Source of the DNA: a virus
Length of the DNA: 36,051 bases
IMG/VR virus record: IMGVR_UViG_3300022204_000012
Coordinates: 1 to 36,051 of that record
Strand: one strand, 5' to 3'
Every line of letters begins with the position of its first letter. Within the stretch, counting starts at the first letter, position 1. Both the position numbers and the translations under genes were made by a program. Of this stretch, positions 1-36,051 are shown piece by piece. Below the pieces are notes generated by a model, which ran no database searches, was not told the DNA's origin, and saw only the letters and a list, made by a program, of their open reading frames with translations.

Positions 1-377
1 TCGGTTCTGACCTAAGCTGGGCTAACCTGCGCGGTGCTGACCTGAGCGGTGCAAACCTGCGCGGTGCCATCCTGTTCGGGGCTGACATGCGCGGGGCTGA
101 CATGCGCGGGGCTGACCTGCGCGGTGCTGACCTGAGCGGTGCAATAGGGTGCCAGCGGCTGCCTGTGGGCGATCCCCAAGGATACGACGCTGTTGCGGTG
201 TGGTGTCACGATCAATGGATGATCTCAGCAGAATACCGGCAAATCGCTGTGGCTGAGGCGAAAGCGCGCTGGGGGTCGGATTACCAGGGAGACCGCGCCA
301 CCGGTGATCGCTATCTACGAGCGATTGAATGGCTGGAGCAGCAGCCAGTCCCGGAGGAGGCAGAGCGCAAACCATGA
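1..377 (+). CDS. Pentapeptide-repeat protein, C-terminal part (gene wraps around the window ends)
   Basis: The frame is open from position 3 without a start codon and ends at a TGA at 375-377. It opens with about nine tandem pentapeptides of the A(D/N)L(R/S)G type, which fold as a right-handed quadrilateral beta-helix in this family. A non-repeat tail of about 75 residues follows and ends EEAERKP. The N-terminal part lies at 35660-36051. Merging the last 124 and first 124 bases gives one frame of 645 nt, or 214 residues. The biochemical role is unknown. Some pentapeptide proteins, such as Qnr and MfpA, mimic DNA and bind gyrase, but nothing here shows that activity. Confidence 0.85.
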
Positions 378-24366: not shown

Positions 24367-24419
24367 AACCCCCCAAGGCTATGGGCTTGCCTATCCTCAA
24401 ACTGGGGGGTTATTTCTTT
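24367..24419 (+). terminator. Terminator of the late operon
   Basis: AACCCCCCA (24367-24375) pairs with TGGGGGGTT (24403-24411). The 27-nt loop has its own small AGGC/GCCT stem. The T-rich tail ATTTCTTT follows. The strong GC stem and position after the lysis genes support an intrinsic terminator of late transcription. Confidence 0.75.
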
Positions 24420-25213: not shown

Positions 25214-25256
25214 GGCCCAAGGTATCAAATCAGGCCGTCAACGAAAACCAAAAATC

Positions 25257-25279
25257 TGTTCGCGGTTGGTCCGTGGTAT
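25257..25279 (-). repeat. Candidate integrase arm-type repeat, outer copy
   Basis: This 23-bp block is identical to 25462-25484. Partial copies of its TGTTCGCGGTT half lie at 25307-25317 and CGCGGTTG at 25301-25308. The two full copies flank the attP core at about 80 and 57 bp, like arm-type binding sites of lambda-class integrases. Confidence 0.75.
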
Positions 25280-25358
25280 CGGGACCATTTCAGCCCCGTA
25301 CGCGGTTGTTCGCGGTTTAATTTGGAGTGATAAAATTTGCTAAGTCATTGAAATCAAG

Positions 25359-25405
25359 GGCGAGCGACGGGGCATGATCCCGCAACCCCCGGAATCACAA
25401 TCCGG
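25359..25405 (-). other. Putative attP core: 3' part of tRNA-His (anticodon GTG)
   Basis: On the - strand this reads as tRNA positions 27 to 73: anticodon stem CCGGA/TCCGG, loop TTGTGAT with anticodon GTG, a 5-nt variable loop, a T stem GCGGG/CCCGT, then an acceptor strand CGCTCGCC. The 13 bases GGATTGTGATTCC equal the anticodon region of the E. coli tRNA-His. The D arm and 5' half are absent, so this is an attachment core and not a tRNA gene. The T loop ATCATGC departs from the normal TTCRANN. The stop codon of the integrase lies in the anticodon loop. Confidence 0.75.
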
Positions 25406-26699
25406 GATCAGTGGTTTTTTTCCCGCCCTTTTTCAGCAACTTAGATTTTCCGTCCCCGCTTTGTTCGCGGTTGGTCCGTGGTATTATCACCGGCGCAGCG
25501 TCCAGCAGCTTCACGGCGGCGGTCATCTTCGCTTCCTCGCCGGCAAAATACGCTTCCGTTGTCTCGATCCTGGAATGGCCGAGCAGGCCCGATATTGTCC
25601 GGCTATCCACCCCCATCACGTTCCTCAATTTGGTGGCGTACATGGCCCGAAATCCGTGGGTGGGCTTCCACTCCCCAAGGTTCAGGGTGGTTTTGTGGCG
25701 GCGGATGGCCGTGGTGATGGAATGGGGATCAGAGTAGGCCAGTTCTCCCTTGCCGTTGTCCAGGATCCACACCTCGTTTTCTCCGGCTTGTCTTTGCGCC
25801 ATCAGGTAGCCCAGCAGGTAATCCGGCAAGGGCAAATCCTTCTCCCGGCGCTCTTTGGAATCAAACCGGAGGGATTTCCGGATCATGAGCTTGCCCGCAT
25901 CGAAATCAATGGCCTCCCAAGGGGCCAGTGCCACCTCGTTGCGTCTCGCGCCAGTGCCCGAGGCGATCATCAGGAAGCGCTCTTGCAGCAGCAGGTAGCG
26001 CGCCTCACGGCGGTTTCTGGCGGACTGTCGCTTGTCGATGATTTTCTGGAGAAGCTGCACCACCTCCTCGTCGCTCGGGGCTGTGGGGATACGCCTGGTG
26101 GTCTTGATCTCCTTGAACTTGGGAAAGCCCTCCAGGTAGTCTCGCTCTCTGGCCCAGTTTAGCATGGCACGCAGTGTGCGTAAATAGATGTTGATGGTGG
26201 AGTTGTTGGGGGGCCGCGGGTGGGGGCGGTATTTGGTGGGTTTTGGGGGGGCGGACAGATAGGCGATGAATTTGTCCAGGTGGCGCAGGGAAAAATCCGA
26301 CACGGGGTGATTGCCGCAGGCCTCAATGTATCGGTTACCGGTGCGGGTCATCCAGTCCCGGGAACCGGCGGAGTGTGTGATCTCGCAGGCCAGCAACCAG
26401 GCCTGAATGACATCCTGCATCGGGGTGCGGTCTGGTTGTGCTACCGGCTCGGTCTTCAGGGCCTCCTCTACCTCAAAATACAGGCGCGTCAGGGTGTTCA
26501 ACCCCTTGCGCCTGGCGCCCTGTCTCCAGATCGGCACCAGTTTGTTTTTCTCGTCGTCTTTGCGCAGGCCGGATATGCCCACCTCGTCCCAGGAGGCCAG
26601 CCTCCGCAGCACCAGTTTCCCATCCACCCACCAGCGGCCAAAAACCGCGCGGCGATTGCGGCGGAACTCAAAATACTCACGCTGCTTACTGGGGTTCAT
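25395..26699 (-). CDS. int: Tyrosine recombinase (phage integrase)
   Basis: This 434-residue enzyme integrates and excises the genome by a covalent tyrosine-DNA intermediate. Catalytic residues are visible in the C-terminal half: Arg252 in GTGARRNE, His348 and Arg351 in HGFRAMYATKLR, His375 in LLGHSRIETTEAYF and Tyr384. A SAM-like core-binding domain (about 90-190) precedes, with an unusual N-terminus rich in Trp and Arg. The start at 26699 is chosen because its ATG overlaps the lipoprotein stop (ATGA). A longer frame to 26756 runs inside that gene. The C-terminal codons contain an arm-type repeat and the stop TGA lies in the tRNA-His attP core. Confidence 0.95.
   Translation of the reverse strand: MNPSKQREYFEFRRNRRAVFGRWWVDGKLVLRRLASWDEVGISGLRKDDEKNKLVPIWRQGARRKGLNTLTRLYFEVEEALKTEPVAQPDRTPMQDVIQAWLLACEITHSAGSRDWMTRTGNRYIEACGNHPVSDFSLRHLDKFIAYLSAPPKPTKYRPHPRPPNNSTINIYLRTLRAMLNWARERDYLEGFPKFKEIKTTRRIPTAPSDEEVVQLLQKIIDKRQSARNRREARYLLLQERFLMIASGTGARRNEVALAPWEAIDFDAGKLMIRKSLRFDSKERREKDLPLPDYLLGYLMAQRQAGENEVWILDNGKGELAYSDPHSITTAIRRHKTTLNLGEWKPTHGFRAMYATKLRNVMGVDSRTISGLLGHSRIETTEAYFAGEEAKMTAAVKLLDAAPVIIPRTNREQSGDGKSKLLKKGGKKTTDPGL
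25462..25484 (-). repeat. Candidate integrase arm-type repeat, inner copy inside int
   Basis: This 23-bp block is identical to 25257-25279 and encodes the residues IPRTNRE near the C-terminus of the integrase. It lies on the other side of the tRNA-His core from the outer copy, as expected of a P/P' arm arrangement. Confidence 0.75.
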
Positions 26700-27199
26700 C
26701 TTGCGGCAGGCAGCGCCAGCCCCATAGAGCCAGTCTCGCCCAGATATGCCACCCAATCGCCGTACATGGGATCAGACCAGAAAGCAGGATCGATCGTGGC
26801 GGAAACCATAATGAGCTTCTCGCCCGGGTCTCCCATGGTGAGTGATCCACCACTGACGGAATAAGGGACCTTGACCGGCTCATAGGGGTCAGAGCCAAAC
26901 AGCCAGTTCAGGCAAAAGGTGTTGGTCACGCGCCCGCCCTCTCCGACTAATTTAACCTTCCCGCCGCTTGTCGTGGCCTTGCCGGTTTCAAAGGCATCAC
27001 AATAAGTGTTGTCGTAATCCAGAACAAACAGATATTGCTTATACGTCTTATCATCATAAAACTGCACCAGGTACAGCACATTAGAATCTTCATACGCCCA
27101 CCCGCCAACAAGGTTTTTATCCATGGTAGGCTCGCTTTCTTCCGCACAGCCAAACAGCGCCAAAACCGCAACAATCAAGACTATCGCTGATCTTTTCAT
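26696..27199 (-). CDS. Lipoprotein co-transcribed with the integrase
   Basis: This 167-residue protein starts MKRSAIVLIVAVLALFGC. The basic n-region, hydrophobic core and lipobox LFGC (Cys18) mark it as a bacterial lipoprotein anchored in the inner or outer membrane. The mature part has strand-like segments (VGGWAYEDSNVLYLVQFYDDKTYKQYLF) and three more cysteines, resembling small lipocalin-like or copper-resistance-like folds without a clear match. The ribosome site GAAGGGG precedes the ATG. Its stop overlaps the integrase start. A lysogen-expressed lipoprotein is a candidate for superinfection exclusion, but this is inferred. Confidence 0.75.
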   Translation of the reverse strand: MKRSAIVLIVAVLALFGCAEESEPTMDKNLVGGWAYEDSNVLYLVQFYDDKTYKQYLFVLDYDNTYCDAFETGKATTSGGKVKLVGEGGRVTNTFCLNWLFGSDPYEPVKVPYSVSGGSLTMGDPGEKLIMVSATIDPAFWSDPMYGDWVAYLGETGSMGLALPAAR

Positions 27200-27782: not shown

Positions 27783-28283
27783 TCAAGTTCGCTTTTCGGA
27801 TACTCTCCCGCTCTTCGCTTGAGCGGGAACTGCTGTGCCAGGTCTGCCGGGAGGCGTATCCGCCTGGTGATCCTCCCCCGCAATCGCTATGTGCGCCCGG
27901 TAGCGCAGCCATTCTTTCAGGTCCTGTCGGCTGTCCTCGTCTAGCGTCCTGTGATTCAAAATCAGCTCCACTTCCTCATCGGCTAAACTGATCGTTCCCC
28001 GCCAGCCCTGCGCCGGTTCCTCCGGCGCGGGCTTGCTCATTTCCCCGCCGGCAAACATTTCCCCCCGGCCAGTGAGTAGCCAGTCGGCGTTGACCTCTGT
28101 GCGTTCCACAATTGAGGCTACCAGCTCCGCTGTTGGCTTTGACCTTCTGGCTCCTGTGATGTTGGCGTAGTTCGACAGACTAAAGCCTATTGAACTGCAA
28201 AAATCCTGTTTTGTGAGCCTCATAGAGGCGCGTAATTCCTCAATTCGATCAGTCAAATGAGAAATTAGTTCCACATTCGACAT
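27783..28283 (-). CDS. CI-like repressor without peptidase domain
   Basis: This 166-residue DNA-binding protein should hold the prophage silent. An N-terminal XRE/Bacteriophage-CI helix-turn-helix is at about 15-65: MRLTKQDFCSSIGFSLSNYANITGARRSKPTAELVASIVERTEVNADWLLTG, closing with the typical GRGEMF. After residue 80 comes a Pro/Glu-rich linker and a helical tail (DEEVELILNHRTLDEDSRQDLKEWLRY). There is no S24 Ser-Lys peptidase, so RecA-driven self-cleavage as in lambda CI is unlikely. The ATG at 28283 is preferred; an in-frame ATG at 28322 lies in the operator area. It is divergent from the Cro-like gene. Confidence 0.8.
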   Translation of the reverse strand: MSNVELISHLTDRIEELRASMRLTKQDFCSSIGFSLSNYANITGARRSKPTAELVASIVERTEVNADWLLTGRGEMFAGGEMSKPAPEEPAQGWRGTISLADEEVELILNHRTLDEDSRQDLKEWLRYRAHIAIAGEDHQADTPPGRPGTAVPAQAKSGRVSEKRT

Positions 28284-28311
28284 TGACACCGCGCTGTTTG
28301 TGGAATAAATT
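28283..28311 (+). promoter_or_regulatory. Rightward early promoter (PR-like)
   Basis: A perfect -35 TTGACA (28283-28288), 17-bp spacer and -10-like TAAATT (28306-28311) would start RNA near 28318, ahead of the Cro-like gene. The -35 begins in the start codon region of the repressor. Confidence 0.65.
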
Positions 28312-28333
28312 GAACTCAGCATAAAGAACTCAA
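28304..28333 (-). promoter_or_regulatory. Leftward repressor promoter (PRM/PL-like)
   Basis: On the - strand TTGAGT (28333-28328), 18-bp spacer and TTTATT (28309-28304) form a possible promoter for the repressor. Its -10 overlaps the -10 of the rightward promoter, so the two are mutually exclusive. Confidence 0.4.
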
Positions 28334-28343
28334 CCAATTGAGT
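28328..28343 (+). promoter_or_regulatory. Putative CI/Cro operator
   Basis: ACTCAACCAATTGAGT is a perfect inverted repeat of ACTCAA around CCAA. The motif GAACTCA also occurs at 28312-28318 and 28326-28332, 14 bp apart, suggesting cooperative half-sites. It overlaps the leftward -35 and lies just after the rightward start. Confidence 0.6.
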
Positions 28344-28350
28344 AGCACAG

Positions 28351-28638
28351 ATGAGACCGATTAAACAAATTTTGGAAATCCAAAACGCCATCAAGTTGAA
28401 TGGCCTCACGCAGGCCGCAATTGCAGAGCGCGCAGACGTCACCGCGACTATGGTTTCCAAGGTTGTCAACGGGCACGCCGTGAGCGCGAAGATCGAACGC
28501 GCCATCAACGATGCGGTGGGCCGCGACGTGTTCGCCATGGGAGGCGACAGCGCCAGGGAAGGCGCGGACTCGGGAGGGGCGGGCGCGGTCTCCGACAGCC
28601 AGCAGCCTGCCTCTCCCTCTGTTCCGGGAGGAAATTGA
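28351..28638 (+). CDS. Cro-like helix-turn-helix regulator
   Basis: This 95-residue protein has a helix-turn-helix in residues 7-60: IQNAIKLNGLTQAAIAERADVTATMVSKVVNGHAVSAKIERAIND, with the phrase LTQAAIAERADVTATMVSKV forming the turn. The rest is a Gly/Ser/Pro-rich disordered tail. It opens the rightward operon and faces the repressor, so a Cro-type switch role is expected. The ribosome site is weak (AGTAGCACAG), which suggests a low level of product. The C-terminal tail length is unusual for Cro. Confidence 0.8.
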   Translation: MRPIKQILEIQNAIKLNGLTQAAIAERADVTATMVSKVVNGHAVSAKIERAINDAVGRDVFAMGGDSAREGADSGGAGAVSDSQQPASPSVPGGN

Positions 28639-29835: not shown

Positions 29836-30414
29836 ATGGAAACGGTCATAAAAATCACATTTGATTTTGGTGATGAACACGGGCCAGTCCCAGCCCATCA
29901 GCACCCCAATGGTGGCGGGTGGGTGGCAGACACCGCGTATGTAGCAGATACCGCGTATGTCGGGCCTGATGCCTTGGTGTTCGGCCATGCCCGCGTGTAC
30001 GACTTTGCCCGCGTGACTGGAAATGCCCGCGTGACTGGAAATGCCCGCGTGACTGGAAATGCCCATGTGACTGGAAATGCCCGCGTGACCGACCATGCCC
30101 GCGTGACTGGAAATGCCCATGTGACCGACCATGCCCGCGTGACCGACTATACTGTGCTGTCCGGCGATGTACATGTGTCCGGTCGCACTCAGTGCACTCG
30201 TACCCCTGTCGTCACCACGGGGATGCAATGGCCGATCGTGATTACGGATGAGCACATCCAAATCGGGTGTGAGTGCCACACCACCAAGGATTGGAAAAAA
30301 TTCAAAGACAAGCGAATCAAGTTGATGGATGAATACGCGCTGGAATTTTGGCAAGCGAATCGCGATTACATCCTGGGGCTTGCTGATGCCCACCAACAGA
30401 AAATCAAGGGTTAG
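29836..30414 (+). CDS. Hexapeptide-type beta-helix repeat protein, 192 aa
   Basis: Residues 30-110 are built of about ten hexapeptides of the form [NDH]A[RH]VTG/TD (NARVTGNARVTGNAHVTG), which fold as a left-handed beta-helix in proteins such as the YdcK-like group. A C-terminal helix (KKFKDKRIKLMDEYALEFWQANRDYILGL) and two cysteines near 144-146 follow. The ATG follows AAAAGGATCAC. Similar repeat proteins occur in many phage early regions, but no role is known. The DNA carries nine tandem 18-bp units, so copy number may vary. Confidence 0.75.
   Translation: METVIKITFDFGDEHGPVPAHQHPNGGGWVADTAYVADTAYVGPDALVFGHARVYDFARVTGNARVTGNARVTGNAHVTGNARVTDHARVTGNAHVTDHARVTDYTVLSGDVHVSGRTQCTRTPVVTTGMQWPIVITDEHIQIGCECHTTKDWKKFKDKRIKLMDEYALEFWQANRDYILGLADAHQQKIKG
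29989..30150 (+). repeat. Nine tandem 18-bp repeats in the beta-helix gene
   Basis: The units are of the form GCCCGCGTGACTGGAAAT, repeated nine times in frame with base changes. Each codes for six residues. Slippage could change the repeat number without breaking the frame. Confidence 0.9.
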
Positions 30415-35250: not shown

Positions 35251-35663
35251 AACTGATTCGATGGGCCAAAAAGGACAGCTGGACCACCCGGGCATGGTCG
35301 CTGTGGCACCACGAGGGCGACGGGTCAACGCGCTGCGGGATACCCCTTCCCACCATCCTTGCGGTGCAGCATGCCACAGAAACAAGCGGGTCCGTGTGCA
35401 GGAAGTGCGAGCGCCAGTCCGGCACGGCCACCAAACGCTTCGGCGGAACGCAACGCGGCGCGGACATCATCCTGCCCGGTAAGGCACGGCGGCGGGGCGT
35501 CAGCGAGGAGGAAGTCCGCGCCGCCGTGCAGCGCTATCTGGGCGAGGGCGGCACCATCCAGCGCATCGAACTCCAACCCCGCCCGTGGATGGCTGGCGCG
35601 CCCGTCACGGTCAACCCCGTGGCCGCACACCACGGCGGCAGGCGAACAGGAGGCCAGCGATGA
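35247..35663 (+). CDS. Putative zinc-binding phage protein, 138 aa
   Basis: The ATG overlaps the previous stop (ATGA). Cys and His residues are spaced as in small zinc-binding phage proteins: WSLWHHEGDGSTRCG, then VCRKCERQ at about 50-57. A basic middle (KARRRGVSEEEVRAAVQRYL) and a low-complexity C-terminus (HHGGRRTGGQR) follow. The stop overlaps the start of the pentapeptide gene. The function is unknown. Confidence 0.65.
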   Translation: MKLIRWAKKDSWTTRAWSLWHHEGDGSTRCGIPLPTILAVQHATETSGSVCRKCERQSGTATKRFGGTQRGADIILPGKARRRGVSEEEVRAAVQRYLGEGGTIQRIELQPRPWMAGAPVTVNPVAAHHGGRRTGGQR

Positions 35664-36051
35664 GCACCATGAAAAGAACCTTGGAGAAAATACGCCTCCA
35701 CGGGCTGTGGCTGGTAGGCAACCCCGATGGTGTCCGGGCCGACCTGAGCGGTGCCATCCTGCGCGGTGCTGACCTGAGCGGTGCAAACCTGCGCGGTGCC
35801 ATCCTGTTCGGGGCTGACCTGAGCGGGGCTGACATGCGCGGGGCTGACCTGAGCGGTGCTGACCTGAGCGGTTCTGACCTACGCTGGGCTAACCTGCGCG
35901 GTGCTGACCTGAGCGGGGCTTACATGATCGGTTCTGACCTACGCTGGGCTAACCTGCGCGGTGCTGACCTGAGCGGTGCAAACCTGCGCGGTGCCATCCT
36001 GTTCGGGGCTGACATGCGCGGGGCTGACCTGAGCGGGGCTGACCTGAGCGG
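35660..36051 (+). CDS. Pentapeptide-repeat protein, N-terminal part (continues at position 1)
   Basis: The ATG at 35660 overlaps the previous stop (ATGA) and follows AGGAGGCC. After a 26-residue lead (TLEKIRLHGLWLVGNPDGVR) come 21 pentapeptides of the A(D/N)L(S/R)G type up to the window end. The variants AILFG, AYMIG and SDLRW mark repeated blocks. The C-terminal half is at 1-377. The repeat DNA is highly similar inside the gene, so the number of repeats and the exact join are uncertain. The function is unknown; gyrase mimicry is one possibility. Confidence 0.85.
   Translation, partial: MSTMKRTLEKIRLHGLWLVGNPDGVRADLSGAILRGADLSGANLRGAILFGADLSGADMRGADLSGADLSGSDLRWANLRGADLSGAYMIGSDLRWANLRGADLSGANLRGAILFGADMRGADLSGADLS
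35928..36051 (+). repeat. Terminal overlap with positions 1-124
   Basis: The last 124 bases match the first 124 with four mismatches and in the same reading phase. This indicates a circular or circularly permuted molecule joined inside the repeat gene. An alternative is two neighbouring tandem repeat blocks. Confidence 0.75.

Follow-up and report, generated by a model that had tools for sequence, protein, structure and literature searches.

A predicted attachment site derived from tRNA-His contains the stop codon of the integrase gene in a virus with a P22-like head module

The DNA analysed here is the IMG/VR virus record IMGVR_UViG_3300022204_000012, and the window means this whole stretch of 36,051 bases, which has a GC content of 58%. 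An integrase gene, int, lies on the - strand at 25395-26756, and its 3' end overlaps a tRNA-His 3' half on the same strand (25359-25405). The int ORF starts from TTG and encodes 453 aa, with a later ATG at 26699 as a possible alternative start. Its product matched PF00589 (E 4.2e-14), PF13102 (E 2e-6) and the phrog_1 integrase family (E 2.3e-38). The motifs HGFR, LLGH and Y403 were read in the sequence, and alignment placed the catalytic residue at Tyr403, with a tail of 50 residues beyond it. With a Phage_integrase domain and a catalytic Tyr near the C-terminus, the predicted product (Int) is a tyrosine integrase. Elsewhere in the window, the portal and coat proteins are P22-like, and a repressor-like gene lies at 27783-28538. 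Neither the relatives of the head proteins nor four related phage records were close enough to throw light on the integration module. ARAGORN found no whole tRNA anywhere in the 36-kb record, which is therefore not classed with tRNA-dependent lysogeny.

Repeats were also observed at other places of the record. Pentapeptide-repeat DNA of the same kind forms both of its ends (window 1-215 and 35611-36051), which suggests that a circular genome was broken in the repeat during assembly; the record ends inside a repeat, and a small amount of sequence may be missing. Because this break lies elsewhere, the site at 25359-25405 is internal, so that it would represent attP and not attL or attR. An ORF at 29836-30414 (+ strand) contains a run of near-identical, hexapeptide-like ARVTGN/HVTDH repeats. 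Downstream of the lysis region, 24369-24410 (+ strand) matched the abiF sRNA family with a score of 25.8 bits, below the gathering threshold of 37; its sequence is CCCCCC...GGGGGG followed by a T-rich stretch, and it is perhaps merely a terminator.

The fragment at 25359-25405 corresponds to positions 27-73 of tRNA-His, as revealed by alignment with 15 host loci and by BLASTN against phage genomes, and C26 at 25406 also agrees with tRNA-His. It comprises the anticodon arm CCGGA-TTGTGAT-TCCGG (25405-25389), the variable loop GGGTT (25384-25388; TGGTC, TTGTC or CCGTC in host genes), the T stem GCGGG/CCCGT, the T loop ATCATGC (25378-25372) and the acceptor strand CGCTCGC plus C73, all on the - strand. 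The ACTGAT upstream of the fragment is not a D arm, so there is no 5' half. When window 25240-25500 was compared with 50,697 phage records, 49 records matched (best E 4e-5). The matches listed cover positions 119-167 of the query, which is window 25358-25406, or nearly so, and tRNA-His is annotated at six of the ten matches listed, including the top ones. Furthermore, a pattern in which 29 bases of the core, T stem and acceptor strand were fixed, searched in 84,980 genomes, gave 15 loci, all gammaproteobacterial by title, including Steroidobacteraceae, Granulosicoccaceae, Thiomicrorhabdus and Hydrogenovibrio. ARAGORN called tRNA-His in 13 of them, the other two being cut by the end of the contig or locus. 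Thus, the letters, ARAGORN and BLASTN agree with the initial annotation that these bases form a tRNA-His from the anticodon arm to the acceptor strand, and, since the 15 loci share the core and the stems, the host match extends beyond the anticodon stem. Judged from these comparisons, the tRNA-His likeness is not due to chance.

The predicted core (25388-25406, - strand) consists of the inverted 6-mers CCCGGA and TCCGGG round a 7-bp overlap, TTGTGAT (25394-25400), with putative cleavage positions. The closest host tRNAs share 18-19 bp exactly with the attP core, and the substitution T44G lengthens its inverted repeat to 6 bp. The initial annotation suggested a crossover in the anticodon arm. 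We also regard this as its most likely predicted position because of the exact identity of 18-19 bp, the inverted stems round a 7-bp loop and the T loop, whose divergence is too great for an overlap region. Candidate arm-type sites flank the core, as expected of a lambda-like attP, in which the N-terminal domain of Int would bind repeats on both sides. On the int side, a predicted pair at 25462-25484 (+ strand) lies within int codons 425-432 (IPRTNREQ) and is an exact 23-bp repeat of a predicted distal pair, TGTTCGCGGTTGGTCCGTGGTAT, beyond the core at 25257-25279 (+ strand). This sequence occurs exactly twice. A related third pair, GTACGCGGTT GTTCGCGGTT, is predicted from the repeats at 25298-25317 (+ strand), on the opposite side of the core from int. 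In the whole window, the exact 10-mer GTTCGCGGTT is found solely at the three predicted arm sites. Neither the exact attP nor the arm repeat was present in the viral contigs searched.

The 3' end of int reads ...ACT GAT CCC GGA TTG TGA. The gene reads through the int-side repeat and half of the core, and stops at the TGA of 25395-25397 (- strand), which is tRNA-His positions 35-37 in the anticodon loop; TGA is present in every GTG-A anticodon loop. The sequence and the ORF list thus confirm that the stop lies inside the loop, and this position, together with the tRNA match, supports the proposal that a predicted attP core derived from tRNA-His is fused to the end of int. The Int tail has a weak codon character (GC3 of 0.58 vs 0.77), in keeping with DNA constrained as an attachment site. 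Its open frame is no evidence of selection, since by our estimate 33 codons stay open by chance about 1 time in 5. No close relative of Int was found among IMG/VR viral contigs, phages, genome contigs and 369 class-level genomes. The best match in a plasmid search with Int was only 28%, and 398 phylum-level genomes yielded only distant integrases (25-35%), without an informative att site.

Compared with the host genes, the phage 3' half carries four to eight substitutions. The closest gene, in a Hydrogenovibrio MAG, shows four differences in positions 26-73 (T44G, C48T, T54A and A58T), and positions 44, 48, 54 and 58 are altered relative to each of the 15 host genes. The contig of this closest gene has a GC content of 33.5% vs 58% in the phage; the closest tRNA thus comes from a low-GC contig and may not be that of the host. 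The stems are unaltered relative to the closest genes in each of their 27 letters (10 in the anticodon stem, 10 in the T stem and 7 in the acceptor), and so is the anticodon loop. The phage T loop ATCATGC differs from the closest host loop, TTCAAGC, by T54A and A58T alone. It had been described as off consensus, and indeed T54 and A58 are invariant in the 15 host genes. Positions 54 and 58 are the partners of a T-loop tertiary pair, which is swapped here from T-A to A-T, and T55, C56, purine 57 and pyrimidine 60 are kept. Among tRNA-His fragments in viral contigs, 101 stretches have a canonical T loop, and the search for a non-T at position 54 gave one match, which has no tRNA-like acceptor strand. 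An origin of the T loop by template switching at the dyad TGATCCCG/CGGGATCA was considered and rejected; the dyad accounts for only four of the seven letters, and the closest host loop needs just two changes. Searches of IMG/VR, the genome collection and phages found no lysogen, attL or attR. These negative results, together with the lack of a close integrase relative in the searches, count against the proposed site, whose use is therefore a prediction. It might be argued that the fragment is a relic of past integration at tRNA-His, whose 3' half has drifted while the integrase now uses another site or none. The missing lysogen and the number of substitutions against any known host gene, which include the invariant T54 and A58, are consistent with such a relic. 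However, the changes are confined to the variable and T loops, the stems and anticodon loop are intact relative to the closest genes, and the repeats on both sides of the core are intact. We therefore consider a relic quite unlikely.

We compared where integrases stop in other phages with a tRNA-His fragment. In viral contigs, 53 such fragments lack a 5' half, and a profile built for this comparison found an integrase within 3 kb at 34 of these loci. Five integrases are on the tRNA strand and end short of the loop by 114 to 604 bp, 18 are on the opposite strand and stop past the tRNA 3' end, eight on the opposite strand read through the whole fragment, and three point away from it. None of the 34 stops in the anticodon loop. 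In the four comparable integrases on the tRNA strand, 12-13 residues follow the Tyr and the stop is 114-128 bp short of the loop, whereas the catalytic Tyr of Int is followed by 50 residues, encoded across the P arm up to the TGA in the loop. The distance from the Tyr to the core is 150 bp here and 151, 153, 164 and 167 bp in these four integrases. This near equality suggests an ordinary attP geometry, in which it is the stop codon that has shifted. An ancestral stop of int, some 12 residues beyond the catalytic Tyr, may have been lost, so that the gene would run on to the next in-frame stop, which lies in the core.

Among the integrases that read through the fragment, those at six loci (the near-identical L018, L047, L069, L075 and L082, and also L097) end in a block of the GWxMGLEPTTTGITIL type, which is the tRNA-His fragment read antisense; the six or seven residues after this block are encoded beyond the core. 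The integrases at L083 and L104 likewise run antisense through the tRNA-His fragment and have a longer end. At these eight loci, integration should replace the Int C-terminus, and the idea of the initial annotation, that integration swaps the last int codons for host sequence and ties the structure of Int to the integration state, could hold there. No lysogen of these antisense-type phages was found in our searches. Attachment sites in tRNA-His are used, as shown by genome G117, in which an element of about 29 kb (G117:C1:1825588-1854857; L148 and L149) is integrated at tRNA-His, with a whole tRNA-His at one end and a 3' fragment at the other. The int gene of this element starts beside the 3' fragment and points away from it.

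For the int gene of this record, we simulated integration in silico by joining int to the 15 host tRNA-His 3' halves at every point where the shared block (13-19 bp) allows a crossover. With 14 to 20 such points per host, Int was identical throughout at the 15 loci, because each of its codons lies either on the phage side or within this block, and the overlap that contains the TGA is also shared. Thus, the swap of the last codons was not borne out here, and neither was the link between Int structure and integration state, as the TGA lies within the block common to attP and attB. The frame was unchanged at all simulated attR junctions, so int is not predicted to be a suicidal or state-dependent integrase. 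The end of int and the core do overlap, and a C-terminal exchange is expected at the eight antisense loci, where int ends beyond the fragment; nevertheless, with its stop in the shared block and the same protein from all simulated junctions, it is very improbable that this phage senses its state through a differing C-terminus. Int would be the same protein in the free and in the integrated phage, since the stop is common to attP and attB.

Integration would also affect the host tRNA. The attR site would hold int and the host tRNA 3' half, and attL would complete a tRNA-His whose 5' half comes from the host and whose 3' half comes from the phage. The tRNA-His of a lysogen would then carry the variable loop and the T loop from the phage; it would keep all stems, T55, C56, R57 and Y60, with the 54-58 pair swapped. 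In simulated attL, ARAGORN called tRNA-His in all 13 loci that hold a whole tRNA. ARAGORN thus accepts the hybrid, but random T loops placed on these stems also passed in 51% of cases, against 1.2% for shuffled 3' halves. The swap in the T loop could impair or abolish the function of the rebuilt tRNA. Two tRNA-His matches were found in only four of 172 matching genomes, and in one of these four the second match is due to the integrated element of about 29 kb described above. Since tRNA-His is mostly single copy, either the hybrid must work or the host needs a second copy. One could imagine that the phage 3' half was selected as a working but marked tRNA-His, with stems kept, a compensatory 54-58 swap and a hybrid distinguishable in lysogens, and that the Int extension encoded by the P arm is functional; we regard this combination as rather unlikely.

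That the hairpins act at the int end as a terminator or a regulatory RNA element, and not as an attachment site, is scarcely credible: CCCGGATTGTGATTCCGGG does form a hairpin, and the region is also spanned by the dyad TGATCCCG...CGGGATCA, but no T run follows the hairpin, a terminator scan had no entry and no RNA family matched beyond chance at 25359-25405, and an exact tRNA-His match that includes the acceptor strand serves no terminator role.

Very probably, the record represents a temperate podovirus whose head module is P22-like, whose attP targets a gammaproteobacterial tRNA-His and in which Int would mediate exchange in the 7-bp anticodon loop; int would have lost its ancestral stop, and Int would remain unchanged on integration. 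As far as the sequence tells, the attP site is real and unusually placed, and what is unusual is the int stop in the tRNA loop. In this record, an integrase gene clearly takes its stop codon from the targeted host gene, where recombination cannot alter the stop, and this arrangement shows the extent to which int can run into its own attachment site. The antisense-type phages offer the idea of the initial annotation in a testable form, as their Int C-terminus should truly change on integration, and the swapped 54-58 pair offers a direct test of how far a phage may alter the host tRNA that is being rebuilt.

Overlaps of attP in the literature, most of it openly accessible, were of other kinds only (PMC7911831, PMC8371274, PMC2951348, PMC10865867), which leaves novelty unproven. 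In KplE1/intS, an att site also physically overlaps int; there, attL overlaps the int promoter and 5' end, with autoregulation, whereas the overlap here is at the 3' end (PMC2951348). Suicidal archaeal integrases of the SSV type likewise have attachment DNA translated as part of the integrase, and self-disrupting integrases were called exclusively archaeal in a review; unlike the SSV-type gene, which is split on integration, only the last codons overlap here and the protein is predicted to be unchanged (PMC8371274). The CDS that bridges attP in a Pleolipovirus is a separate small gene present in the circular form only, whereas here it is int itself, predicted to be intact in both states (PMC7911831). 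In Fionnbharth and Gaia, which show tRNA-dependent lysogeny, the attP 3' half also departs from the host tRNA and puts the function of the rebuilt tRNA in question; they share only 8-10 bp with the host and bring their own tRNA, in contrast to the 18-19 bp of exact identity, conserved stems and lack of a tRNA gene here (PMC10865867). Boilgate is nearer to this attP, with a 43-bp core, five mismatches and a functional rebuilt tRNA (PMC10865867). Mycobacteriophage Omega, which uses tRNA-Leu, also has a tRNA 3' half as core and int upstream on the same strand; its crossover is in the anticodon loop, as predicted here, and pairs of 10-bp arm repeats flank its core on both sides, as do the predicted arm-type repeats here (PMC3706429). 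Omega-type mycobacteriophages, which have 10-bp arm repeats in pairs and cross over in the anticodon loop, place the core about 100 bp past the end of int, whereas int here crosses the arm repeat on its own side of the core and ends within the loop (PMC3706429).
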